IMG/VR virus record: IMGVR_UViG_3300036398_002854
Location: 1-55,507 of that record
DNA from: a virus
Direction: 5' to 3' (one strand)
DNA: 55,507 bases
A program made the translations under genes and the position numbers. Positions 2,941 through 53,373 of this stretch are shown here, piece by piece (position 1 is the first letter of the stretch; each line of letters opens with the position of its first letter). The notes under the pieces were generated by a model, which ran no database searches, was not told where the DNA came from, and saw only the letters and a program-made list of their open reading frames with translations.

Positions 2941-2975
2941 GATGCCGCTAGACCCTAATTTCACAGGAGGCTTTG

Positions 2976-4112
2976 ATGCCCAATAGTCTTTCCAATCTTA
3001 TTCCCCGGCTTCTAGCGCGCGGTCTACTTGCTCTGCGTGAGCAGGCCGTTATGCCCCGCCTTGTGAACCTCGACTATTCGAGCGAAGGCGCGATGCGTGG
3101 CTCCACCATCGACATCCCGATCAGCAACACATTCACCGCCACCAACGTTGCTCCTAGCATGACGCCCGCTTCAGCGCAGGACAGCACCCCCGGCCTAGTG
3201 CAGATTGCCCTAGACCAGTGGAAGGAAGTGCCCTTCTTCATCACCGACAAGCAGCGTATGGAGATCATGGAGAGCGAGTCCTTCCTCCCCATGAACGTCT
3301 CCGAGACTGTTCGTGCGCTTGCCAACTCGATGGACGGCCACATCCACAACCAGTATATCGACGTGTATGGGTATGTTGGCACCGCTGGCGACACGCCGTT
3401 CAGCACCATTGCCGACGTGGTGAACGCCCGTGCGCAGCTAAACAAGCAGCTTGCTCCGATGGGCAACCGCCGTATGGTGCTGAACCCCGACGCCGAAGCG
3501 AGCCTGCTCCAGCTTCCCGCCATGTCTGACCTAGAGAAGACTGGCGACCCGGAAGTGAAGATGGAAGGTATGCTCGGGCGCAAGTTCGGGTTTGACTTCT
3601 ATCAGTCCACCAACGTCGTGACCCACACCGCCGGCACCATCGGCAGCGTGACGGTTGCTTCGACCACGGCGGCTGGCGCCACCACCCTGGACATCATCGC
3701 TTCGGTGGGCGGCACTCTGAAGAAGGGCGACGTGTTCAGCATCGCCGGTAACAGCCAGACCTACGTGGTGACTTCGGCTGATGCCACCTACTCTTCGACC
3801 AAGACCGCCATCTCCATCAGCCCGGCCCTGGTTGCCATCGCCTCCAGCGGTGCCGACGTGGCGGTTCGTGCTTCTCACGTTGTCAACCTCGCCTTCCAGC
3901 GCGAAGCCTTCGCCTTCGTGAACCGTCCGCTGGCCGGTGTTGGTGGCGGTGCTGAACTCGGCTCGATCATCTCTCAGATGACCGATCCGGTATCTGGCCT
4001 GACCATGCGTATGGAAGTGACCCGCCACAACAAGCAGGAGCGTTTCGCCGTGGACGTGCTATACGGCGCCAAGGCGATCCGCCCCGCCCTTGCTACCCGC
4101 GTCGCTGGCTAA
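2976..4112 (+). CDS. Major capsid protein, P22 coat-like (378 aa)
   Basis: The start is ATG 2976, five bases after AGGAGG; an in-frame TTG one codon earlier is too close to the ribosome site. The protein opens with MPNSLSNLIPRLLARGLLAL, then has a long SMDGHIHNQYIDVYGYVG helix-like segment, NRRMVLNPDAEASLL and MEGMLGRKFGFDFYQS, the order seen in P22-type HK97-fold coat proteins. An inserted region around residues 205-290 contains LKKGDVFSIAGNSQTYVV, comparable to the extra beta domain of this family. It builds the icosahedral shell. Its strong ribosome site, structured leader and flanking terminators suggest high, independent expression. Confidence 0.9.
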   Translation: MPNSLSNLIPRLLARGLLALREQAVMPRLVNLDYSSEGAMRGSTIDIPISNTFTATNVAPSMTPASAQDSTPGLVQIALDQWKEVPFFITDKQRMEIMESESFLPMNVSETVRALANSMDGHIHNQYIDVYGYVGTAGDTPFSTIADVVNARAQLNKQLAPMGNRRMVLNPDAEASLLQLPAMSDLEKTGDPEVKMEGMLGRKFGFDFYQSTNVVTHTAGTIGSVTVASTTAAGATTLDIIASVGGTLKKGDVFSIAGNSQTYVVTSADATYSSTKTAISISPALVAIASSGADVAVRASHVVNLAFQREAFAFVNRPLAGVGGGAELGSIISQMTDPVSGLTMRMEVTRHNKQERFAVDVLYGAKAIRPALATRVAG

Positions 4113-4132
4113 TCGCTTCGCCTCAAAACAAG

Positions 4133-4161
4133 AAAGCCGGGCAGAAATGCCCGGCTTTTTT
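4133..4161 (+). terminator. Strong terminator after the capsid gene
   Basis: A perfect 11 bp stem (4133-4143 with 4148-4158) with a GAAA tetraloop runs into a T tail. It also separates rightward capsid transcription from the leftward tRNA gene that ends at 4164. Confidence 0.92.
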
Positions 4162-4163
4162 GT

Positions 4164-4250
4164 TGGTGGAGGCGGAGGGATTTGAACCCACAAACCTTTT
4201 CAGGTAGCAGGGTTTGAGCCTGCCGCGTATGCCTGTTCCGCCACGCCTCC
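4164..4250 (-). tRNA. tRNA-Leu (CAA), CCA encoded
   Basis: On the minus strand a 7 bp acceptor stem (GGAGGCG with CGCCTCC), a D arm, an anticodon stem GCAGG/CCTGC with loop CTCAAAC, a long type-II variable arm and a T arm with TTCAAAT can be folded. The anticodon is CAA, reading UUG. The 3' CCA is present in the DNA (4164-4166). The T stem has one U-U mismatch. Its 5' end at 4250 touches the stop codon of the deaminase gene, so both come from one transcript that needs processing. Confidence 0.9.
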
Positions 4251-4652
4251 TTAAAGGCATTCGTATCCTCTTTCAGTGGTATAGAATACCCGCTTTATCC
4301 CGAAGTCAGTAATGCACCTAGCGCAACCCGGACAGGGTTTAGCATTGCCCAAAATAAATTTATCTCGTTTCGTGCTAGAATACTTGACCCGGTACACATA
4401 TAGGTCCGCTTTCTTCAAACTATCTACGTCCACAACACGCAAAGCATTAAAAATGGCATTTGTCTCTGCGTGCCAAAAAATAGATTCAGGGTTTTTCCCA
4501 AATTTGGCTTGGAACGGATGCGTTCGCATCTGGTTAGCACCGAACGATACGATTTCTTTGCCGCGCACGATAGCTGCCGCTATGCGTGAACTTTTAATCG
4601 GAGATACGTCTTCCGCAAGCATACGCAGTGTATTGAATATGTTCTCGTGCAT
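4251..4652 (-). CDS. Deoxycytidylate deaminase family protein (133 aa)
   Basis: This zinc-dependent deaminase would convert dCMP to dUMP, feeding thymidylate synthesis. The catalytic signature is complete: H61-A-E63 supplies the zinc histidine and the proton-shuttling glutamate, and the PCPGC motif supplies C107 and C110. An AGGGG ribosome site lies nine bases before ATG 4652. It belongs to a leftward group with dNMP kinase. The stop codon abuts the 5' end of tRNA-Leu, and tRNA-Met lies 17 bases upstream of its start, so the gene sits between two tRNAs. A ComE-type or MafB19-like deaminase is possible, but phage context favours dCMP. Confidence 0.85.
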   Translation of the reverse strand: MHENIFNTLRMLAEDVSPIKSSRIAAAIVRGKEIVSFGANQMRTHPFQAKFGKNPESIFWHAETNAIFNALRVVDVDSLKKADLYVYRVKYSSTKRDKFILGNAKPCPGCARCITDFGIKRVFYTTERGYECL

Positions 4653-4669
4653 TTTTGTGCCCCTAAGTT

Positions 4670-4746
4670 TGGTGTAAGCGGCAGGACTTGAACCTGCACC
4701 TAGCCTGTTATGAGCAGGCCGCTCTACCTAATTAAGCTACGCTTAC
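4670..4746 (-). tRNA. tRNA-Met (CAT), CCA encoded
   Basis: The minus strand folds into a 77-base cloverleaf: acceptor GTAAGCG/CGCTTAC, D arm with TTAATTAGGTAGAGC, anticodon stem GCCTG/CAGGC around loop CTCATAA, and T arm CAGG-TTCAAGT-CCTG. The anticodon is CAT. With CAT it could be elongator Met or a lysidine-modified Ile tRNA; I cannot decide. The acceptor 5' strand overlaps the TAA stop of the gene at 4743-4976. Confidence 0.9.
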
Positions 4747-4976
4747 TCTCCGTCTTCATCGTCATCGTCAGTTGTGAAAATAAAGTATTCTCCTTGACGG
4801 AAAAGAAAAACAGCCTCCATATTCGAGACGCTATCGGTCATAACCATTCCGGCATTTCCCTCTTTATCAAGAAAAAGCGTGACGGCCTTTTCAATCCCCA
4901 TTTCCGATAGCCGTTCGGCTTGCGCCATCAACTGAGAACGGCCAGCGCCAGTCGTGCTGTTATTCTTCTTCGTCAT
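4743..4976 (-). CDS. Small acidic protein of unknown function (77 aa)
   Basis: No family recognised. The protein starts MTKKNNSTTG, has an amphipathic segment (residues 15-30), a beta-rich middle and a very acidic tail (TTDDDDEDGE). Its TAA stop lies within the 5' acceptor strand of tRNA-Met, so the last four bases are shared. It follows dNMP kinase by nine bases in the same leftward unit. The ribosome site is weak (AAGG 13 bases upstream). Acidic tail proteins of this size in phages sometimes act as inhibitors or DNA mimics, but nothing here shows that. Confidence 0.6.
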   Translation of the reverse strand: MTKKNNSTTGAGRSQLMAQAERLSEMGIEKAVTLFLDKEGNAGMVMTDSVSNMEAVFLFRQGEYFIFTTDDDDEDGE

Positions 4977-4985
4977 AGAGAAATA

Positions 4986-5639
4986 CTATCCTTGAAGGTC
5001 AGGGAGTTGGTTCTTTGCCCGCACATACGCTTGGATGTCGAAAGCGGCATCTCGTGCAAAAGAGTCTGCCGAGGGGTAGTCGTTAAAAATATGAAGGTCG
5101 AAAGGCTTGTTGGACAGGTTGCCTTCGCTTGAATGCTCCTTGGTGAATAGCCGCTGAAACCAATTGCGCTTCGGCTTTTCGGCTTCCAAGCTGGGGCGAC
5201 GGATTTCCACCATTGTCGCCTTCATATCTTTTTTGAGGTAGTCATACTCGTTGTCGAAACGAACATCGTCAACGACGACATTCTTACCATCCCACAAAAG
5301 AGGGCGGATTTTGGTATCAGCAACTTCAAGCCAAAAACTCTGCCCCATGCAGTTACGACCCCATTCCGTGCCAAGGGTCTGCATGGCGTGGCGGGGTGTC
5401 TTGTCAAAAAGGAAGGGGCAGTGTCGGTGCTTCTCGCTGCCCTCGATGATTTCGTCAATCTTGCACATAGGCACGCCTTGATAGGCCAAAAGGGCGCGGA
5501 GCATCGCCTTTAGGCCATCCGCCATCTTCACACGAACGAAGCCGTATTCGCGCACAAGCATGTCGGCCACGGTGCTTTTTCCCGCACCGGGATATGGGCT
5601 GTAGATGCCAACAAGATTTCCAGTTTTAAGCGGGGACAT
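4986..5639 (-). CDS. Deoxynucleoside monophosphate kinase (217 aa)
   Basis: A P-loop kinase that would phosphorylate dNMPs to dNDPs for DNA synthesis. The Walker A motif is at residues 17-22 (PGAGKS), followed by a family-specific RHAMQTLGTEWGRN segment near residue 85 and NVVVDDVRFDNEYDYL, both characteristic of T4 gp1-type dNMP kinases. The start overlaps the end of the metallophosphoesterase gene by 14 bases, with GAAGG upstream. It works with dCMP deaminase, ribonucleotide reductase and the dCTP deaminase-like protein encoded elsewhere in the window. Confidence 0.88.
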   Translation of the reverse strand: MSPLKTGNLVGIYSPYPGAGKSTVADMLVREYGFVRVKMADGLKAMLRALLAYQGVPMCKIDEIIEGSEKHRHCPFLFDKTPRHAMQTLGTEWGRNCMGQSFWLEVADTKIRPLLWDGKNVVVDDVRFDNEYDYLKKDMKATMVEIRRPSLEAEKPKRNWFQRLFTKEHSSEGNLSNKPFDLHIFNDYPSADSFARDAAFDIQAYVRAKNQLPDLQG

Positions 5640-25542: not shown

Positions 25543-26079
25543 TTAGGTGCGGGGCCAATAGATGATCGTTGGCCCTCGGTCAATATGGGTCTGATTCCAT
25601 ACGTGCCAGACGTAATTGTGGATGGGCTGGGCCTTTCTTTCCTCCGACCACCAAGGGCGAAACCGCATCCTGATTTGGCGCGTATAAAGCGGAGAATCAA
25701 AGAACCGCGCCCGTGACGACGCCAAATCCCAATTTGCCCGCATCAAAAAACAGGCGCCATAGACCTTTCTCGATTGGATATGCTTGATGGCCGTTTCAAC
25801 AAATCGGTCCACAATCTTGCGGTCATACGGGGGATTGGTGACGATCCAGTTTGTGTGTCCTATATCCGCGAAGGCGTCCTGCATACCGTAAAGAAACTTG
25901 AAATCCTTCTCTGCGAAACGGCGCAGAATACCACTACCGTTCGGGGCACAAATATCCGTAATCCCGTCGCACAAGCTAATGGACTCTACAAGCGCGTCCA
26001 CACATCGAGGGTCGATGGTCTGATAATCGTCATTCTCTTTGCGTGCGTATCCGCTATGCACGTAGGGCACTTTAGTCAT
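25543..26079 (-). CDS. Short DNA adenine methyltransferase-like protein (178 aa)
   Basis: The catalytic motif IV NPPY appears in NWIVTNPPYDRKIVD near residue 82, and an SAM-binding-like DICAPNGSG loop lies near residue 42. The order (SAM loop before NPPY) indicates a gamma-like N6-adenine methyltransferase fold, but the protein is short and the target recognition part is small. Related phage proteins are often annotated as methyltransferases without proven activity. It overlaps the vWA gene by eight bases. Confidence 0.65.
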   Translation of the reverse strand: MTKVPYVHSGYARKENDDYQTIDPRCVDALVESISLCDGITDICAPNGSGILRRFAEKDFKFLYGMQDAFADIGHTNWIVTNPPYDRKIVDRFVETAIKHIQSRKVYGACFLMRANWDLASSRARFFDSPLYTRQIRMRFRPWWSEERKAQPIHNYVWHVWNQTHIDRGPTIIYWPRT

Positions 26080-26670: not shown

Positions 26671-26922
26671 TTAATACATCCCAAGCGCCTTGAGGTAGGT
26701 GTCGCGGATAAGTTCACGCTCCTCGCGTTCCGCAGCATCTTCCGCGCGCATCTTGATGATTTCGCGGATAACCTTGGGGTTGAAGCCCGCGCCCTTGGCT
26801 TCCGCCATAATATCCGAGATGGCGGACTGGATTTCCTTCTTCTCGGTATTGAGGTTTTCGATACGCTCAATGATCGAAAGCAGACGATCAGAGGCGATGG
26901 AGTTGTGGCCGATGTCGCTCAT
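26671..26922 (-). CDS. gapR: GapR-like nucleoid-associated protein, DUF2312 (83 aa)
   Basis: Nearly the whole length matches the GapR pattern: RLLSIIERIENLNTEKKEIQ, then IMAEAKGAGFNPKVIREIIK, then DAAEREERELIRDTYLKALG. GapR is a small Alphaproteobacterial protein that forms a clamp on overtwisted DNA ahead of forks and transcription, supporting chromosome replication with topoisomerases. The phage copy lies between a vWA protein and the replication genes and probably binds phage DNA during replication. It is also a strong host-range clue. Confidence 0.9.
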   Translation of the reverse strand: MSDIGHNSIASDRLLSIIERIENLNTEKKEIQSAISDIMAEAKGAGFNPKVIREIIKMRAEDAAEREERELIRDTYLKALGMY

Positions 26923-26927
26923 TGTTC

Positions 26928-27344
26928 TTAGTCCTCGTGCTTGACGGTTTCAGCGAATACTTCTAGTGTTGCGGTTCTTGACTTGATTGCCTCAAAGATT
27001 TTTGGCGCACGAGTTGGCAATTCAGCCAATCCTGTGCCGAGCCCATCATGCGGGACTACAACTGTTCTTCCCGCCTTTAGCCATGCAAGCGCAATCATAA
27101 ATGGAAAGCGGATAGCATCTTCGACAAACTCCCAATCTTCGTCCTTAAAATACGAACTCGTTTGCGAGTCGGGTGCCCACTTTGTAGGCACGCCGAAGCT
27201 GTTGGGGTGGCCGCGCATGGTTGCAGCCTGACCACCGTAACCTTGGCGGCGCATGTTGTCACCAAAGAGAAAAATTGTGTGGGGGAAACCTTCGAGCACA
27301 TCTTGCTTGGAGATGAACTTCTTGTAGACGAGTGTTCCGGGCAT
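26928..27344 (-). CDS. Conserved macro-like phage protein (138 aa)
   Basis: Conserved elements are TIFLFGDNMRRQGYGGQAAT, then RGHPNSFGVPTKWAP and VVVPHDGLGTGLAELP. This combination of a GDN-x-GxGGQA loop and a GIPTK segment occurs in a conserved family in phages and bacteria and resembles the ligand-binding loops of macro domains that bind ADP-ribose-like molecules. The biochemical activity is not known to me. The gene directly follows the polymerase C-terminal gene. Confidence 0.65.
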   Translation of the reverse strand: MPGTLVYKKFISKQDVLEGFPHTIFLFGDNMRRQGYGGQAATMRGHPNSFGVPTKWAPDSQTSSYFKDEDWEFVEDAIRFPFMIALAWLKAGRTVVVPHDGLGTGLAELPTRAPKIFEAIKSRTATLEVFAETVKHED

Positions 27345-27345
27345 T

Positions 27346-28941
27346 TTACTTCCTATACCTTTTGCCTGACCAACCTTCTGCCTTTACTGGCAGCCCCGCC
27401 GCCCATTCGGGCGTGGCCGCTACCAACGCTTCATACTCTGCCACGTCTCCGTAGCCCTCGTCAACCTCAGAAACGACTTCATCGTGAACTGTCAGCACGA
27501 CCGGATAATTGTGTCGCTCCAGTCGGAACATGGACTCCACCATCAGGTCGCGCGACACCGCCTGCACCACGTTCTCTGTGAACGTGCCTGGGCTGACCAC
27601 GGTGCGCTCCCACTTGCGCGTAAGGGCGTTCACCGCGCCAATCACAACGCCTTGCTTCGTCTCGCCCCAAGGCGTCTTGACCGCTTCGACCTTGGCCTTT
27701 GGGTAATTAAGCGCGCGGCCCGAGGGGAGAAGCAGGCGCAAATTGTCATCGCGCATCCTGAACTTCATGTTGCGAAGCGTGACAACCTTGGTGGGGTTGT
27801 TGATAGCCTTGATGGCTGCACGCTCCAAGGCATACCACAGTTTCGGGATGTGGTGGTAAGTTTCACGATACAAAGTAACGACGCGCTTGTATTCTTCTTC
27901 TTCCAAGAAGATTTGGTCCTTGGCGCAAGTCAATGCGAACTTTGGCGCACCCATGGCGTAGCCCAGGCCGAGTGTCGCTGCTTTCCCTAGCTGGCGGGCA
28001 CGTGGATCATTCTTTTTAGTGATCGGCCTGTTGTATATGATACTTGCAAAGTTACAGTAAATGTCATCCCCATTAGCAAACTGTCGCACCAAGTCATCTT
28101 GCCCTGCAATCCACGCCAGCACACGCGCCTCAATGGCTGCGAAGTCTGCTGCGTAAAGGATTTTTCCAGAGCCTGCTTGGATGAGGCTGCGAATCACATC
28201 AGCCACAACAGTCTGCACAGGGCCGTAGCACAACTCGATTTCGTCTATGTTGCCCCGTTGGATATATGGGATGGCGTCCTCTGGTTCTTTGAGCAATTCG
28301 GGGCGGGGCAGGTTTTGCAACTGCACGCCCTTGCCCGCGAAGCGGCCTGTAGATGCGCCATGGTAAAGCAGGTTGCCGTGGATGCGCCCTTCGGCATCCG
28401 CCATGTTCAGGATGGCTTGGAGTTTCTTGGTAGAGGACTTGGCGCCGATCTGGCGCAGATACAGGACTTCCCTGACTTCGGCGGGGAGGGTCTTGTCTTT
28501 AAGCGCGTTGGTGACGCCTTGCTTATCAAGGCTAGGGAAGTGGCAGCCTTTGGATGCGAACCACCGCACCAACTTATCGCGTTGGCTGAGTGACGTGACG
28601 AGGCCATTTGTGATTTGAACAAGGCGCGCATTGAGGCGGGACGCACCTTGCTCTACAAGCCCTAGCGCCAATCGTGCCGTCTCCAGGTCAACGCCAATGC
28701 CACGGTCGTTGATACGTTGGTCAAGCAGATAGACTTCCCGCTCAGAAGGTATGAGGGGGTAGAGTTTCTTTTCGGCTAGGCGTTCCGCCTCAACGTCGGT
28801 CTTGCAATACTCGTAGAGTTTGTTGAGGCGGTCGAAGTATATTTGGTTTTGGCGTTCGCGCGAGGCTTCGGTCTTACCAGTGATTTCATAGTCGTCCCAC
28901 CAGCGGATGTGACCGAAGTCGTCGTCATCTTCGTCGCTCAT
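27346..28941 (-). CDS. Family A DNA polymerase, polymerase part with Exo III (531 aa)
   Basis: This is the C-terminal piece of a split PolA-type replicative polymerase. Near the N-terminus RLNKLYEYCKTDVEAE provides the exonuclease III motif (Y-x3-D). Polymerase motif A is YAADFAAIEARVLAW, motif B RQLGKAATLGLGYAMG and motif C VLTVHDEVV, all intact. The missing Exo I and Exo II motifs are encoded by the upstream gene at 29643-30083. Six bases separate it from the methyltransferase stop and GAGG precedes its ATG, so it is translated on its own. It should synthesise phage DNA; proofreading needs the other fragment. Confidence 0.92.
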   Translation of the reverse strand: MSDEDDDDFGHIRWWDDYEITGKTEASRERQNQIYFDRLNKLYEYCKTDVEAERLAEKKLYPLIPSEREVYLLDQRINDRGIGVDLETARLALGLVEQGASRLNARLVQITNGLVTSLSQRDKLVRWFASKGCHFPSLDKQGVTNALKDKTLPAEVREVLYLRQIGAKSSTKKLQAILNMADAEGRIHGNLLYHGASTGRFAGKGVQLQNLPRPELLKEPEDAIPYIQRGNIDEIELCYGPVQTVVADVIRSLIQAGSGKILYAADFAAIEARVLAWIAGQDDLVRQFANGDDIYCNFASIIYNRPITKKNDPRARQLGKAATLGLGYAMGAPKFALTCAKDQIFLEEEEYKRVVTLYRETYHHIPKLWYALERAAIKAINNPTKVVTLRNMKFRMRDDNLRLLLPSGRALNYPKAKVEAVKTPWGETKQGVVIGAVNALTRKWERTVVSPGTFTENVVQAVSRDLMVESMFRLERHNYPVVLTVHDEVVSEVDEGYGDVAEYEALVAATPEWAAGLPVKAEGWSGKRYRK

Positions 28942-28947
28942 TGCGCC

Positions 28948-29646
28948 TCAATACATCGACCAAGGGCCTGCGTCAAACGCCTGCTTGATGCGTTCCTCCG
29001 CAATGGCGAAATACTTGTCGTCAAGTTCGATACCGATGAATTTGCGGCCAAGGTTCATTGCCGCAACGCCGGTTGTGCCGCTGCCCATAAAGCAGTCCAA
29101 GATAGCGCCGTTTGAGCCGTCGTCCGTATCACGAATCAAGGATTCGATAAGCCCAACTGGTTTGCATGTGGGGTGCCCGTGATCTTCAGATGGGCTTGGG
29201 CGTTTCGCTTCATACACACTCTTGGGTCGCCCATTTTTGAAAATGCGCCTCCCTTTCACCGCATACCATACAACATCGTGCATAGGGGCAAATGCCCCGC
29301 GCAAATCACCCATGCCGTGATGGAGTCGGTTCCAGATGACTTGCGACTTCAAAGTAAAGCCGCAATCTTCAATGTGGCGCCGCCAATCACAACTTGTCCT
29401 CCAATCGCAGAACGAAAGAAGGCCCCCCCCGTTATTTTTCAGGATACGGTATGCTTCCTTGATAAATCGGGGATCAATTTCGTCGTCACCTTTAATCTTT
29501 TCGTGTCTCGGCCCTGACTTGGACCAATTTGACTGGAACGCCATACCGTAAGGCGGATCGGTCAACACCATATCCACCGAACCATCCGGGATTTCCTTCA
29601 TGCGCTCAAGGCAGTCGCCCTTGAGCAACGTCAGCGCGTCCTTCAT
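28948..29646 (-). CDS. Beta-class DNA adenine methyltransferase inserted in the polymerase gene (232 aa)
   Basis: The catalytic DPPY is near the N-terminus (DMVLTDPPYGM, about residue 33) and the SAM motif FMGSGTTGVAA near residue 190, followed by RKFIGIELDDKYFAIAEERI. This order defines beta-class enzymes such as CcrM-like orphan methylases, expected to make N6-methyladenine (or N4-methylcytosine). Its start overlaps the exonuclease fragment stop as ATGA and its stop lies six bases before the polymerase fragment, so it sits between the two halves of the polymerase. No restriction endonuclease gene is seen beside it. Confidence 0.9.
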   Translation of the reverse strand: MKDALTLLKGDCLERMKEIPDGSVDMVLTDPPYGMAFQSNWSKSGPRHEKIKGDDEIDPRFIKEAYRILKNNGGGLLSFCDWRTSCDWRRHIEDCGFTLKSQVIWNRLHHGMGDLRGAFAPMHDVVWYAVKGRRIFKNGRPKSVYEAKRPSPSEDHGHPTCKPVGLIESLIRDTDDGSNGAILDCFMGSGTTGVAAMNLGRKFIGIELDDKYFAIAEERIKQAFDAGPWSMY

Positions 29647-30083
29647 ACCTTTTTCCCCTTCCTCGGCTTCGTCATCTTCAGCATATGCCGACTACCTTCC
29701 ATGTCCTTCTTGATTTCCAAGTCAAGCGCCTCACCAACGCCTTCCAGTGACCGTGGAACCGCCATGGCTGCGGCCATGGCTGCCGTGCAGAACCATTGCT
29801 CCAACGTCACAGGGGCGCAGCCGTAGCGCGGCACGGCGATGTTCTTGGTAATCAGGCGCTCGAATTGGGCATTGTGCGCGTAGATGGGATGGCCCTGCCT
29901 GATATGCTCGTTCAGTTCTTCAGGCCAGGGCAGATGTGGTGTCCACAGTTGCACAGGGTCATCATCCTTCGCATACGCCATGCAAAGAATGTCGGTGGTC
30001 GGGTGTTCGGCGTAGCGATACACGCCAACCAGTTTAAGGTTGGCGGTGGATTTGGTTTCGTAGTCTATGTGGTAGATGGGCAT
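29643..30083 (-). CDS. DNA polymerase 3'-5' exonuclease fragment, Exo I and II only (146 aa)
   Basis: The protein begins MPIYHIDYETKS with the Exo I D-x-E, and Exo II is AHNAQFERL near residue 71. It continues to a DMEGSRHMLKMTKPRKGKK stretch that in uninterrupted family A phage polymerases lies just before the Exo III part. Here it stops and the methyltransferase gene starts. It therefore forms only two thirds of an exonuclease active site. No clear ribosome site precedes the ATG, which follows a terminator-like hairpin. Confidence 0.85.
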   Translation of the reverse strand: MPIYHIDYETKSTANLKLVGVYRYAEHPTTDILCMAYAKDDDPVQLWTPHLPWPEELNEHIRQGHPIYAHNAQFERLITKNIAVPRYGCAPVTLEQWFCTAAMAAAMAVPRSLEGVGEALDLEIKKDMEGSRHMLKMTKPRKGKKV

Positions 30084-30087
30084 GGTG

Positions 30088-30118
30088 CAAAAAGAAGGCG
30101 GGTTGCCCCGCCTCCTTC
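30088..30118 (-). terminator. Terminator-like hairpin between DUF2815 and the polymerase fragment
   Basis: GGCGGG (30097-30102) and CCCGCC (30107-30112) form a stem with a four-base loop, extended by AAGG/CCTT pairing across a bulge. On the minus strand TTCTTTTT follows. It may reduce read-through from the ssDNA-binding gene into the polymerase gene. Confidence 0.65.
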
Positions 30119-30124
30119 TCTGCC

Positions 30125-30697
30125 TCAGAACAGGTCGGAAGCGTTGCCTTCACTGACGTTATCGCCGGGAACGTCATCGAAATCATTATCCGCGCTGCGA
30201 CCACCGCCGGTAGCGATGCGTTCGCCATCGTCAACGAACTGCACGTTGTTCAGGCCGAAGCTCACGCCCTTGTTGCCGCTGTTGTCATACGCGAAAGCGT
30301 TGATGCTCGCACGAACGAAGCAACCCGGATACAGGCGATCCTCGTCGGTGATGATCGGAAACTTGCCATCCACCTTCTTGCGGTCCACAACCTTTGGCTG
30401 CTTCTTGCTGCTGATGGTGATGAACACGCAATCATCATCGAAACCCGCCGTGCCTTCCTTGTCGGAGCCGGGGCGGAACGGGTTACGCATGTTCTTGGGC
30501 GGCTTGTCGCCAAACTTGGCCTTAGCGGCAGCACTCGCCGCCTTCTTCATGTTCTGGTATTCCGCAGTCTCCTGTGCGGCCTTGTCGAAAACAAGCACGC
30601 AGGAATACTTCGGGGTGTTGCCGTTGAAGCCGCGAGGCTCGAAAAGCGCCGGGAAAGCAAGTCGGGCCTTGGGGGTAACGACGTTGGTCTCGCTCAT
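30125..30697 (-). CDS. DUF2815 family single-strand DNA-binding protein (190 aa)
   Basis: The protein starts MSETNVVTPKARLAFPALFEPR, then PKYSCVLVFDK and ECP-type pieces such as DRLYPGCFVRASINAFAY, the pattern of DUF2815, an OB-fold family that in phages stands beside DUF2800 and a PolA gene and acts as ssDNA-binding protein. The C-terminus is acidic with a phenylalanine at the end (EGNASDLF), as in other SSBs that recruit partners. Expected role: protecting single strands during replication or recombination. Confidence 0.82.
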   Translation of the reverse strand: MSETNVVTPKARLAFPALFEPRGFNGNTPKYSCVLVFDKAAQETAEYQNMKKAASAAAKAKFGDKPPKNMRNPFRPGSDKEGTAGFDDDCVFITISSKKQPKVVDRKKVDGKFPIITDEDRLYPGCFVRASINAFAYDNSGNKGVSFGLNNVQFVDDGERIATGGGRSADNDFDDVPGDNVSEGNASDLF

Positions 30698-30720
30698 GTC
30701 ACATCCTAGGAGCCGGGTTA

Positions 30721-30788
30721 GCGTGCATTTTGCCCCTCATGTCGCACGCCATTGCCCAGCCACAGTGATTTCAAAAGAGGGGCAAAAT
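30721..30788 (-). other. Intergenic region with two mutually exclusive hairpins
   Basis: A perfect 12 bp inverted repeat ATTTTGCCCCTC (30727-30738) / GAGGGGCAAAAT (30777-30788) spans a 38-base loop. A second repeat, GCGTGC (30721-30726) / GCACGC (30743-30748), encloses one arm of the first, so only one of the two stems can fully form in the RNA. It lies between the DUF2800 stop and the DUF2815 start and may act as attenuator or mRNA processing site. Confidence 0.45.
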
Positions 30789-30789
30789 C

Positions 30790-32010
30790 TCACTCGAAGT
30801 TGGTGAAGCCGTCAAGCGCGGGAACGGAGTCAAACTCATCCCCGATCTGCAACACAACCGCAGGCCGCTTATCGGAAAGCGGTGCGATGGTGTTGCCTGA
30901 CGATACTGCCACAACGGCTTCCGCCAGTCTATCCTTAATCGCCTTCTTCTTCCCAAGTTTTTCTTCGGCTTGGGCAGGCGAAATCAACTTGCGCGTGAAG
31001 ATATCGTCGTCCTCAAGCCCCATGGACGTGAGAAGGTCAATCGCATCTTCTTCGCTTTGCCACTTCCGGGTTGCCCGCTTGGCGACAAGTTTGTAGCCGG
31101 GGACGTGGCCCCCGTTCTCCAATTTGCGCTGCGCGTATGCCTGGACCGAGTTGATCCAGCCCTTGAACAAGTCAGCCTTGGCGAGAATGTCGCCAATCTG
31201 CGCTTCGCTCAGGCTTTCCGGTTCAGGCGGGAGGAAATTGTCGTCAAACTCCGCCTGAGCCAACGCCACAGCCTGCTCATGCAGTTTGGGGCACTTGGCC
31301 TGCGCAAGACAGAAACGACAATGGTCGCCCGGAGAAAGTGGAGCATCGGCTTCCTGTGTGCGGTGGGCTGCGGCAAGAAGGTCTTCCGCGAACTCGACGC
31401 GAAGCGAGTAGGCGTCAATCTCAAACTGCCTCACGTAGCCGTCAGGATGGCGGTAGCGGGGCTGCACGATGACCATGCGAACGCGAGTCGGGAAGATGTT
31501 GCGCTCCGCCTCCATCGCCAACATGGCGCCTAGGGCGTAGTAGGAAAGCTGCGGGGAGTTTTCCACCTTCACGGGCACGCCCGCACCATACTTCAAGTCC
31601 ATGACGGTCAGGCGCTTTTCGTCCTCATTCCAGATCACGGCATCCGCCGTGCCGAACATCGGGACAGGTGGGTTCAGGGCTTGAAGGTTGAACCGCTGCT
31701 CGATGAACAACGTGTTGCCTTCTGCCTCCTCCAACACCGCGTCAACGTAGACCTGAACCGCCTCGGCCATGTCCTCCGTGACTTCAAAGCCTTCAATCTC
31801 CTGCCCCAAGAAGGCTGTAGCCATCTTGTTCTTGCGGAGGCACATCTCCGCCAATTCATGCGCCGCCGTGCCCTCGCGCGCGTAGTCTGTGGATATGTTG
31901 GGCATACCCTCAGACAGACGCACAGAGCCAGGACAGGCGATCCACCGAGACGCCGAACTCGCGCCCAAGGAAGCATGGGCGCGGTTGGCATGTGTTGGCA
32001 GATTAGACAT
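30790..32010 (-). CDS. DUF2800 family PD-(D/E)XK nuclease (406 aa)
   Basis: Start set at ATG 32010, overlapping the upstream stop by eight bases. After SASRWIACPGSVRLSEGMPN comes AREGTAAHELAEMCL, then FGTADAVIWNEDEKRLTVMD and DLKYGAGVPVKVENSPQLSY, the core of a Cas4/RecB-like nuclease (the GTAD-x(n)-DLKYG metal site), followed by HCRFCLAQAKCP, a cysteine cluster typical of DUF2800. It may process DNA ends during phage replication and recombination with DUF2815. Confidence 0.85.
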   Translation of the reverse strand: MSNLPTHANRAHASLGASSASRWIACPGSVRLSEGMPNISTDYAREGTAAHELAEMCLRKNKMATAFLGQEIEGFEVTEDMAEAVQVYVDAVLEEAEGNTLFIEQRFNLQALNPPVPMFGTADAVIWNEDEKRLTVMDLKYGAGVPVKVENSPQLSYYALGAMLAMEAERNIFPTRVRMVIVQPRYRHPDGYVRQFEIDAYSLRVEFAEDLLAAAHRTQEADAPLSPGDHCRFCLAQAKCPKLHEQAVALAQAEFDDNFLPPEPESLSEAQIGDILAKADLFKGWINSVQAYAQRKLENGGHVPGYKLVAKRATRKWQSEEDAIDLLTSMGLEDDDIFTRKLISPAQAEEKLGKKKAIKDRLAEAVVAVSSGNTIAPLSDKRPAVVLQIGDEFDSVPALDGFTNFE

Positions 32011-33975: not shown

Positions 33976-34432
33976 GGCTCAATCCATAATACGCCAACAA
34001 CGCACTCTCCGCCCTGCCATCATCCTTGACGCGCTTGAACAACTCAGCGTTCTTAGGGAACAACGCCATCGCCTTCATGCGTGCGCCTCCCTTGTCGGCT
34101 GGTATGCTCATCTTGCGCTTCCATGTCGCGGGATGCACAAGGATGGTGGGGAAGTTAAGTGCAGCCAAAATACCTTCAATCTGTCCGAAGCCTCGCCCAA
34201 AAGAGAAAGCGCCTACAGCGCCTTCGCCCGGTCGCACTCCAACCTGTTCGAGAATGACCTTATCGGGGTTGCTGTTCTTGAGGATTTCGACAAGTAGCGC
34301 AGGAGGGATGCTCCTGCGCTTCTTGCCGTTCACCACGATCTCTACGGTTGGCATGTCCTCTACGATGAGACCGCCCGGAGTGATTGTGGCGATAGCGCCG
34401 CTAAGGCCAGGGTCGATACCAACGATGTTCAA
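33968..34432 (-). CDS. RuvC-like Holliday junction resolvase (154 aa)
   Basis: The N-terminal NIVGIDPGLSGAIAT carries the first catalytic aspartate (D7), VILEQVG the glutamate, and the C-terminal GRAESALLAYYG the further acidic residue, all as in the RuvC fold. It would cut four-way junctions in replicated or recombined phage DNA before packaging. It overlaps NrdB by four bases (ATGA) and the helicase gene by eight. Confidence 0.88.
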   Translation of the reverse strand: MNIVGIDPGLSGAIATITPGGLIVEDMPTVEIVVNGKKRRSIPPALLVEILKNSNPDKVILEQVGVRPGEGAVGAFSFGRGFGQIEGILAALNFPTILVHPATWKRKMSIPADKGGARMKAMALFPKNAELFKRVKDDGRAESALLAYYGLSHA

Positions 34433-36363
34433 AACGCATCACCCCAATCGCCCTTGGTTGCTGCCTTGCTGTATTCCGTGGCGCGGTTCTCGAAGAAGTT
34501 GGTATGCTCAGGCGCATTGAGCATGTCGTCAAGCCAAGGAATCGGATTGACCTTTACGCCATACAGCGGGCGAAGGTGCAACTGGAGAAGTCGCCTGTCC
34601 GCGATAAAGCGGATATACTGCTTGATTTCATCAGCCGTCATGCCCTTCACGGGGCCAAGGGCGAACGCCAAGTCAATGAACGCATCCTCGTGTTCCACGA
34701 TCATCTTGCAGATTTCGTAGATTTCTACCTGCAAGGCCGCGTCGAACAGTCCGGGGTTTTCCTCGCAATAGGTATGGAAAAGCCGAATGATGTTTTCGCA
34801 ATGAAGTGTCTCGTCGCGCACGCTCCACGCAATGATCTGCCCCATGCCCTTCATCTTGCCGAAGCGAGGGAAATTCAGAAGCATGGCGAAAGAGGCGAAA
34901 AGCTGAAGCCCCTCCGTAAATGCGCCAAACGCGGCAAGGGTTTTGGCGACTTCACGCGGATTATCGACTGAGAATTTGCTGAAGTAGTCATACTTGTCAC
35001 GCATTTCCTTGATCTGCATGAAAGTAATATACTCAGACTCAGGCATCCCAACCGTATCGAGTAGATGCGAATAGCTCGCAACATGGACCGTGTTGCCGGT
35101 AATTGCTACGCGCCCGTTTCGCCTAGACACGATGTTCTGATGCGGCACAGAAACGCAAAACACTTCGTCGTCATATTCTTCTTCAACGCGGTGCGGATAC
35201 GTTCGCCATACACGGTCGCAAATAGTGACAACCCAACAAGTCTTGGTATTCGTCGTAACTCTGCCAGTTGGCAAGTGCGATTCCCAGCCTGCTCCTCGGT
35301 TGACTCCAAGAGTCGCAGAGATTCCGGCCAGAACGCAAATAGCCTGGAACTTGTCTACCGCCCGACGCTCCGTGCTGTAGAACGCTCGAACGATGCCGCT
35401 TCGTGTGCCGTCCCAAAACAGAATTTCATCTACCAAAGCACGCGCCATAGCGGGCGTCATGTCTTCAAGTGAAAGGAAATCCAAAGTCTTCAGGCTCAGG
35501 ATCGCATCATTTCCTGGGAAAGTAAACGTATATCTACTCTGCCCACCTTCTTTCTCACGTTCGTTACACGAGATACCACTTTCCGTCAAAAGAGCAGAAA
35601 GCCTCTCTTTCTTACGGTCCTTCGTCAGACTAAAATCAATCGTGCGTGATGATGGGTTTACTGAAGGGCAGTTACCGCGCAAACAACCATCAGCGGCTAT
35701 CGCGATCTTGAGCGCAACCAAAGCAGGCACCCGTTCACCGTTGTGTTCTGACTTATTAACATTCGCCGCAGTTGGGAAAAGATAGTTTTGCCCCAGTTTG
35801 CGCTCATAGGAGCGCACCTTCTTCACGTTTCGAGAAGACGGGTGCTGGACAATCAGTTCGTGATTAGGTGTGACGCAAATATCCGCCGATTCACTTTTGT
35901 AGCGGTGCATTACACCCTGATACGGATACGCAACAACTCGATCAGGATGGACAAAGCTGATCGCCCCTGTTTGCAAGTCATACTGCGCGACCTTATCTTC
36001 TGTGGTTAGCGTGTCACACTTCTTCCACCCTTCCGAAGTGAGCAGTTCTGTGCTGCGGTCGAAGCACTCACTATCCGCAAACGAAGTCAGCATCATCACG
36101 ACTTCGGTCGGTTTGAAGATCGGCAGATAGTTGTGGACGTAGTTATCCGCTACGGACGCATCAGCCTGCGTGAAGAAGCGGAAAATCTGTGTCAGAAGGT
36201 TCTTCTCGCTTGGTGTCAGGTTCTTCTGCCAATCCTTCACGTCATCCGCGAGGGGGACTTCCTCTGGAAGCCAATGGATGCGCTGCTGCTGAAGCCAAGC
36301 GTCATACGCCCAAGGATAGCGAAACGGCTTGTAGCCAAGGGAGGGGGTGGAGAGATTGGTCAT
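34429..36363 (-). CDS. nrdB: Ribonucleotide reductase class I beta subunit containing an intein (644 aa precursor)
   Basis: Extein residues 1-99 and 425-644 together form a 319-residue NrdB. Iron ligands and radical site can be followed: D68, E99, then after the intein H427 and Y431 (matching E. coli D84, E115, H118, Y122), later EGLQLF and ETLHCENI. Residues 100-424 are an intein. NrdB holds the diiron-tyrosyl radical that starts ribonucleotide reduction; its partner NrdA is encoded at 42740-44506. The gene heads the leftward replication operon, after a 73-residue gene. GAGGAAACC precedes the start. Confidence 0.93.
   Translation of the reverse strand: MTNLSTPSLGYKPFRYPWAYDAWLQQQRIHWLPEEVPLADDVKDWQKNLTPSEKNLLTQIFRFFTQADASVADNYVHNYLPIFKPTEVVMMLTSFADSECFDRSTELLTSEGWKKCDTLTTEDKVAQYDLQTGAISFVHPDRVVAYPYQGVMHRYKSESADICVTPNHELIVQHPSSRNVKKVRSYERKLGQNYLFPTAANVNKSEHNGERVPALVALKIAIAADGCLRGNCPSVNPSSRTIDFSLTKDRKKERLSALLTESGISCNEREKEGGQSRYTFTFPGNDAILSLKTLDFLSLEDMTPAMARALVDEILFWDGTRSGIVRAFYSTERRAVDKFQAICVLAGISATLGVNRGAGWESHLPTGRVTTNTKTCWVVTICDRVWRTYPHRVEEEYDDEVFCVSVPHQNIVSRRNGRVAITGNTVHVASYSHLLDTVGMPESEYITFMQIKEMRDKYDYFSKFSVDNPREVAKTLAAFGAFTEGLQLFASFAMLLNFPRFGKMKGMGQIIAWSVRDETLHCENIIRLFHTYCEENPGLFDAALQVEIYEICKMIVEHEDAFIDLAFALGPVKGMTADEIKQYIRFIADRRLLQLHLRPLYGVKVNPIPWLDDMLNAPEHTNFFENRATEYSKAATKGDWGDAF
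35092..36066 (-). mobile_element. Intein with LAGLIDADG-type homing endonuclease in NrdB (325 aa)
   Basis: The intein begins at Cys100 (CFDRSTELLTSEGW) and ends at Asn424 (RVAITGN), followed by Thr425 as the +1 nucleophile. Block B is CVTPNHEL with Thr165 and His168. A DOD endonuclease is embedded: LKIAIAADGCL (about 218-228) and ALVDEILFWDG (about 309-319) are its two LAGLIDADG-like helices. The penultimate residue is Gly instead of the usual His, seen in some active inteins. Splicing joins E99 to T425 and restores the iron-binding helix. Confidence 0.9.
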
Positions 36364-52597: not shown

Positions 52598-52764
52598 AAA
52601 AGACCGCCCAAACCGCCCAAAGCGCCCAAAACCGCGAAACGCCCCCTAAAATCAAGGGTTTATTTTTGGGCGGTTTTGTTTTCGGCTCCGCCCAAAAAAC
52701 GCCCACCCGCCCAAAACCGTCCAAGGCTTGAAAACGCCCTTTGGCGCCGTCCATACAGCCTCCC

Positions 52765-53373
52765 ATGACCGTTCTGATCTTCGACACAGAGACTTCCGGC
52801 CTTGTGGATCGGCGCTTCGAGGCTGAAGACCCGCAGCAGCCTGACGTGGTGCAGTTGGCGGCGCTGCTGTGCGGCGATGACGGTAAGGTGCTTTCTTCAT
52901 TGTCGGTGTTGCTCCGCCCCGCGCTGCGCCCTATCGAACCGGGCGCTGCCAAGGTCCATGGCATCACGCAAGCGATGGCGCAGGAACACGGCTTGAACGC
53001 CACACAGGCGCTTATTTTGTTCGGGGCTATGGTAGACAAGGCGGACGTGCTGGTGGCGCACAACCTCTCCTTCGACGCCCTAGTGCTGCGGACGGCGTGG
53101 CACCGCGCCTTTGACGAAGATTTCCGTGTCAGGCTTTTTGGCAAGCGAGCGTTTTGCACGATGAAGGCGATGACCCCCGTGTGCAAAATCCTGAACGGTC
53201 GCTCGCGCCACAAGACCGACTACAAGTGGCCCAAGCTCAGCGAGTGCATCGAGTTCCTGTTTGGCGAACGCTTGGAGGGCGCGCACGACGCCCTTGTGGA
53301 CGCGAAGGCGTGTGCGCGGATATACTTCGAGTTGCAACGCAGGAAGGGTCTTGCGGACACTCAGGAGGAATAG
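52765..53373 (+). CDS. DnaQ-like 3'-5' exonuclease (202 aa)
   Basis: Start is ATG 52765. The DEDDh motifs are complete: FDTETSGLVD (Exo I), AHNLSFDALVLRTAW (Exo II) and HDALVDAKACARIYF (Exo III). A stand-alone epsilon-like exonuclease of this kind could proofread in trans. That is notable as the phage polymerase has its own exonuclease split over two genes. Located right after the candidate origin and before small genes. Confidence 0.88.
   Translation: MTVLIFDTETSGLVDRRFEAEDPQQPDVVQLAALLCGDDGKVLSSLSVLLRPALRPIEPGAAKVHGITQAMAQEHGLNATQALILFGAMVDKADVLVAHNLSFDALVLRTAWHRAFDEDFRVRLFGKRAFCTMKAMTPVCKILNGRSRHKTDYKWPKLSECIEFLFGERLEGAHDALVDAKACARIYFELQRRKGLADTQEE

Follow-up and report, generated by a model that had tools for sequence, protein, structure and literature searches.

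A phage family A DNA polymerase probably built from two chains, divided between Exo II and Exo III and carrying a methyltransferase gene in the seam

The motifs of a family A DNA polymerase are divided between two genes in a virus record of 55,507 bases, analysed here at full length and called the window, and a DNA methyltransferase gene lies between them. The locus raises the question of whether one enzyme is made from both genes and whether the methyltransferase divided them. The answer reached here is that the virus probably builds its polymerase from two parts. The first-pass annotation placed Exo I and Exo II at 29643-30083, Exo III and the polymerase motifs at 27346-28941 and the methyltransferase at 28948-29646, with an ATGA junction on one side and a six-base gap on the other; all of this is found in the sequence. 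The three genes are on the minus strand. The first (Exo, 146 amino acids) encodes the N-terminal part of a 3'-5' exonuclease domain, the middle one is a beta-class methyltransferase of 232 amino acids (PF01555, E 1.2e-32) and the third (Pol, 531 amino acids) encodes Exo III and a complete polymerase domain with motifs A, B and C (PF00476, E 2e-26). The Exo stop and the methyltransferase start overlap as ATGA (29643-29646, minus strand), and the same spot reads GTGA, the Exo stop and Pol start, in relatives that have no insert. The right edge of the insert (28942-28953, minus strand) consists of the last methyltransferase codon, a TGA stop and the gap GGCGCA, after which the Pol ATG follows; this edge was compared with the empty site AAGTCAGC-GTGAGCGACGAAG of the relative L016. 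Judged by its sequence, a GAGG just 5' of the Pol ATG could be a ribosome-binding site.

The order of genes on the minus strand is ssDNA-binding protein, Exo, methyltransferase, Pol, a DUF7831 protein and a GapR-like protein. The ssDNA-binding protein upstream of Exo (30125-30697, minus strand; PF10991, E 2e-43) is of the Enc34/DUF2815 type, and the gene order including it is conserved among the relatives compared. A terminator-like hairpin with a T tract (30095-30109, minus strand) stops about 10 bases short of the Exo start codon; the T run is present in relatives too, and the structure could tune expression of the polymerase operon. The DUF7831 gene on the other side of the locus (26928-27344, minus strand) is just 72% identical to that of the relative L002 while its neighbours are 96-100% identical, a sequence pattern that marks it as a local recombination patch beside the polymerase.

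The Exo and Pol ORFs are consecutive parts of one polymerase profile. In PHROG the Exo ORF matches positions 670-788 of phrog_17 (DNA polymerase; E 2.4e-16) and the Pol ORF positions 803-1232 (E 1.7e-89). With Pfam, DNA_pol_A matches the third ORF only and N6_N4_Mtase the middle one. Exo I is represented by D7 (codon 30063-30065) and E9 (30057-30059) and Exo II by N71 (29871-29873) and E75 (29859-29861), all in the Exo ORF, and Exo III by Y45 (28807-28809) and D49 (28795-28797) in the Pol ORF, all on the minus strand. The exonuclease carboxylates (D7/E9, E75 and D49) and Y45 are thus all there, spread over two chains. In alignments with relatives the columns of Exo I, II and III are invariant or nearly so, and the invariant residues of Pol are Y45, D49, D266, E271, K320, Y328, H486, D487 and E488, the last seven of which represent motifs A, B and C with the catalytic Asp residues. 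Klenow and T7 polymerase have Asp at the Exo II position where the window has Glu. This Glu is nearly invariant across the phage subfamily, intact enzymes included, and it is therefore no sign of decay. One substitution was seen in an otherwise invariant column, Asn to Ser at residue 71 of the Exo chain of L021, a methyltransferase-bearing contig (3300035682_000047). An intact second polymerase would have given the locus another meaning, but no second family A polymerase is found elsewhere in the 55,507-base record.

The survey of related phages for an intact gene covered 113 fetched relatives, both viral contigs and annotated phages. Exo and Pol are in one open frame in 98 of them. The remaining 15 are 12 loci of the clade described here (some contigs were fetched repeatedly), two contigs ending inside the gene, and L201. 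The last is a single contig with an independent two-ORF family A polymerase (3938-4504 and 4492-5340), cut after Exo III and with a TGATG stop/start overlap. The polymerase of Achromobacter phage tuull (L221) is annotated as two ORFs (1976-2944 and 2949-4274), which is either a real split or a sequencing error; in Achromobacter phage SE2, matched by the same query, it is one CDS. The search of genome_contigs yielded no close relatives.

Within the clade of the window the split is uniform. It recurs in nine further IMG/VR contigs that were readable on both sides of the junction, so that all 10 clade contigs have two ORFs and none a single polypeptide with Exo and Pol. The split sequences form one clade in the tree (SH-aLRT 100), which corresponds to one change, and are separated from the intact relatives by a long branch. 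The split is old enough for Pol to be at only about 80% identity between the two split subclades. A sequencing error joining the fragments into one frame is contradicted by the same arrangement in independent contigs. The contigs are metagenome-derived, and a fault of sequencing or assembly might be thought of on that ground, or else an intron removed from the mRNA; the agreement of ten contigs and the gene-like ORF overlaps and substitution patterns leave this with a negligible probability. Group I and group II introns were rejected, as an Rfam search of 26800-30900 found no intron family.

The methyltransferase, unlike the split, is patchy. Seven of the nine other contigs have none, and in six of these (L016, L022, L033, L017, L018 and L020) the junction was read base by base; the seventh, L019, aligns likewise. 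The Exo frame of the six ends GCG TGA and Pol starts at an overlapping GTG one base back, the junction sequence being AAGTCAGCGTGAGCGACGAAGATGAC in L016 and AAAGTCGCGTGATAGACGA in L022 and others. The nearest relative of the window (L002/L016) is 100% identical in the ssDNA-binding protein and in GapR, 98.7% in the SNF2 helicase, 98.6% in Exo and 96.4% in Pol, and the methyltransferase is absent. Because close insert-free relatives are split, not intact, and at the same point (GTGA), the polymerase already consisted of two genes when the methyltransferase arrived. One subclade's empty junction is homologous to that of the other (AGTC.GCGTGA). This argues for the empty split state as the ancestral one, and loss from an occupied ancestor is strictly possible too. 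It had been proposed that an inserted gene turned the polymerase into a two-subunit enzyme. The two-subunit part of that proposal is the best-supported reading, whereas the methyltransferase as cause of the split is contradicted by the split relatives without insert and by the patchiness of the insert.

A modified form of the same proposal is that the insertion did split the gene and that the relatives with empty sites have later lost the insert precisely, leaving a two-ORF scar. The split point is exactly the insertion point, loss of an insert can leave such a scar, histories with gains only and with losses only are comparable in number of steps on the tree, and there is a parallel ambiguity for Aeromonas phage 25 (PMC2988022). 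Independent deletions would not, however, be expected to give both subclades homologous empty junctions with the same compact GTGA overlap. Furthermore, over its first 105 nt the insert of the window is 91-92% identical to those of L021 and L023, against 74.5% for the adjacent start of Pol and 83% for Exo. Inserts whose 5' end is more alike than the flanking Pol and Exo are younger than the clade, and an origin of the split by insertion is considered unlikely.

The methyltransferase itself (METHYLTRANSFERASE) has the beta order of motifs, with TDPPYG (motif IV) N-terminal, then target recognition, and FMGSGTTG (motif I) C-terminal; PF01555 covers its full length and it is a beta-class amino-methyltransferase. 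The contigs that have it are the window, L021 and L023, and these are not mutual nearest relatives on the tree. Compared with the window, the genes of L021 and L023 are 83% identical in the last 150 nt and, beyond the similar first 105 nt, only about 44-46% in the middle, which is essentially unrelated. L021 and L023 share 62% identity with each other in the middle and do not differ in the last 150 nt. The left end of the insert has spread since the clade diverged, because the Pol start flanking it has only 74.5% identity between the window and L021. A similar methyltransferase, an orphan gene of contig 3300011114_000575 (L049), is 80% identical to the window methyltransferase in amino acids over nearly the full length; it differs in being placed beside terminase-like genes of another phage, with no polymerase nearby in the fetched stretch. 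From these comparisons the methyltransferase is best read as a mobile passenger, the recognition region of which appears to be exchanged by recombination via the conserved ends. It presumably brings the phage some benefit and was presumably inserted after the splitting. A further and tentative idea, held as doubtful, is that the seam of the split polymerase is a docking site for exchangeable methyltransferase cassettes, by which DNA modification would be varied at a fixed, co-translated spot of the replication operon, with the proofreading site put together in trans from the two chains. Between a vWA-like gene and PhoH the window has a further methyltransferase-like gene (phrog_799; 25543-26079, minus strand). 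Nothing matches it in L002, which is very similar in other respects, and this points to one more methyltransferase gained or lost recently.

The cut had been described as lying exactly within the exonuclease active site. This holds for the primary sequence, where it falls between Exo II and Exo III, and not for the structure, where it falls in a variable surface loop. The alignment with intact relatives places the cut in a hypervariable linker that runs from a conserved (K/R)M.KPR segment to the helix of Exo III. It shows no conserved residues missing at the junction, the loss of which had been suggested as a check. In the split clade the linker has become longer and an acidic stretch (DEDDDD) has been added. 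In a model of the intact relative L024 (pLDDT 94.4) the linker, residues 137-153, forms the loop that joins helix 127-136 to the long helix of Exo III, 154-177. By fold comparison this model resembles Pol I of phage G20c, Klenow, the Bacillus fragment and DpoZ of phiVC8. The Exo chain alone gives an AF2 model with pLDDT 90.5, in which the last helix and the tail are less certain (pLDDT blocks 79, 75 and 54). A sequence search of the PDB with the Exo profile gave nothing useful and folds were compared instead; with Foldseek the Exo model resembles DpoZ (a family A phage polymerase), RNase T and DnaQ exonucleases. Pol is acidic at its start (DEDDDD) and Exo has a basic tail (KPRKGKK), charges that would suit docking and are no more than suggestive of it.

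Both fragments are under strong purifying selection. In ten pairs analysed by the Nei-Gojobori method with an own script, Exo has a dN/dS of 0.035-0.135 and Pol one of 0.064-0.125. Such values would not be seen in a dead Exo fragment, and decay of this chain was rejected on their account. These values also bear on the suggestion that proofreading was lost with the split, or was taken over by the DnaQ-like 3'-5' exonuclease at 52741-53373 (plus strand; PF00929, E 6.8e-13; phrog_192, E 2e-37), the Exo chain having some other role. Each of the three contigs that extend over its locus (the window, G002 and G010) has the DnaQ-like gene, and the N71S change in Exo II of L021 fits the same explanation. 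The large contigs G003, G005, G006 and G008 are without the gene and also without the neighbouring primase, and because the primase is absent too they probably lack the region. On the other side are the conservation of the Exo chain and of the Exo III residues, the Exo dN/dS of about 0.1 and the intact Exo I to III in the window and in the other clade members. Loss or replacement of the exonuclease is accordingly held to be improbable, if less so than an origin of the split by insertion. The DnaQ-like protein is a possible backup or second source of proofreading.

A fusion of Exo and Pol by a -1 ribosomal frameshift in the empty-site phages would give a single chain after all. The Pol frame is -1 relative to Exo and is open for 49-217 nt upstream of the Exo stop, and AAAA is found ahead of this stop in four contigs. 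No XXXYYYZ heptamer is present in any of the six insert-free relatives, though, and AAAA is missing in L016 and L018. In phages with the insert Exo and Pol must be separate chains, because a frameshift at the Exo stop joins Exo only to the methyltransferase, and yet Exo and Pol are conserved in these members. Frameshift fusion was rejected on these grounds and is given a very low probability, slightly below that of splitting by insertion.

Rejoining of the chains by an intein was also considered and rejected: there is none at the seam, and the intein of relatives is elsewhere in Pol. This is an intein-like insert of about 285 amino acids in motif B of L018, L020 and L023 (loci L008-L011 and L014), placed after RQLGKA (CIAEG...VHN, then C), and the window polymerase is without it. 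The small subunit of ribonucleotide reductase in the window (34429-36363, minus strand) has an intein-like insert of its own at about residues 104-425 (CFDRSTELL...VAITGN).

The reading preferred here, with a probability of roughly 0.7, is a lineage-specific two-piece family A polymerase, split in the ancestor of the clade, the chains of which associate to form the exonuclease site in trans, and which the methyltransferase entered later. In that ancestor a break would have arisen in the polymerase frame, at the variable loop that connects the helix following Exo II to that of Exo III, and the stop and start of the two resulting ORFs would have overlapped as GTGA. The overlap suggests that one ribosome terminates and re-initiates, so that the chains would be made side by side, the Exo chain supplying the beta-sheet with Exo I and II and the Pol chain the Exo III helix and the polymerase. 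Coupled in this way, the chains most likely join as one polymerase in which the exonuclease site is completed by association, and proofreading would thus take place in trans. A mobile orphan methyltransferase may later have entered the gene boundary, where it breaks nothing, either repeatedly or by passing from one lineage to another, and its target-recognition middle would have been exchanged by recombination across the conserved ends. Counted against the two-chain reading are the lower pLDDT of the last Exo helix, the Asn to Ser change of L021 and the DnaQ-like exonuclease at every locus covered.

The intact gene, the split gene without insert and the split gene with insert form an ordered series of how one enzyme becomes two subunits. 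A break in primary sequence inside an active site is tolerable if it is in a structural loop, and a gene now sitting in a break is not necessarily its cause. Two short chains could make the coupling of Exo and Pol testable, as the Exo chain can be omitted or swapped with the polymerase unmutated.

Intact family A polymerases homologous over the full length and with the same Exo and Pol motifs are found in MW202496, RHph_N65 and the PaMx74/AAT-1 group, in one ORF in contrast to the window. The split gp43A/gp43B polymerase of Aeromonas phages 25 and 44RR is alike in being a replicative phage polymerase in two chains, with a gene in the seam of one relative and a split without it in another; whether the endonuclease made that split or entered an existing one is ambiguous, and the two parts from phage 25 co-purify and are active (PMC2988022). 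The enzyme differs in belonging to family B and in having a homing endonuclease or an untranslated spacer as its seam, with no methyltransferase, whereas the seam in the clade of the window is between Exo II and Exo III and is a 4-nt overlap in relatives. The split nrdA gene of phage Aeh1, with mobE in the seam, likewise gives an essential two-chain enzyme with an extra gene between and has full activity, but it is another enzyme and there the endonuclease reportedly caused the split (PMC2988022). The family A polymerase of the OM43 phages MEP401 and MEP402 is divided into two ORFs that a small ORF separates, as in most of their phage group (PMC10580990). The cut there is inside the polymerase domain, the first ORF comprising the whole exonuclease and the N-terminal part of Pol, and an intron is suspected by the authors. 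In the literature searched, coverage of which is partial, no report was found of a family A polymerase with its break between Exo II and Exo III, nor of a seam that holds a methyltransferase. Split phage polymerases as such are already known.
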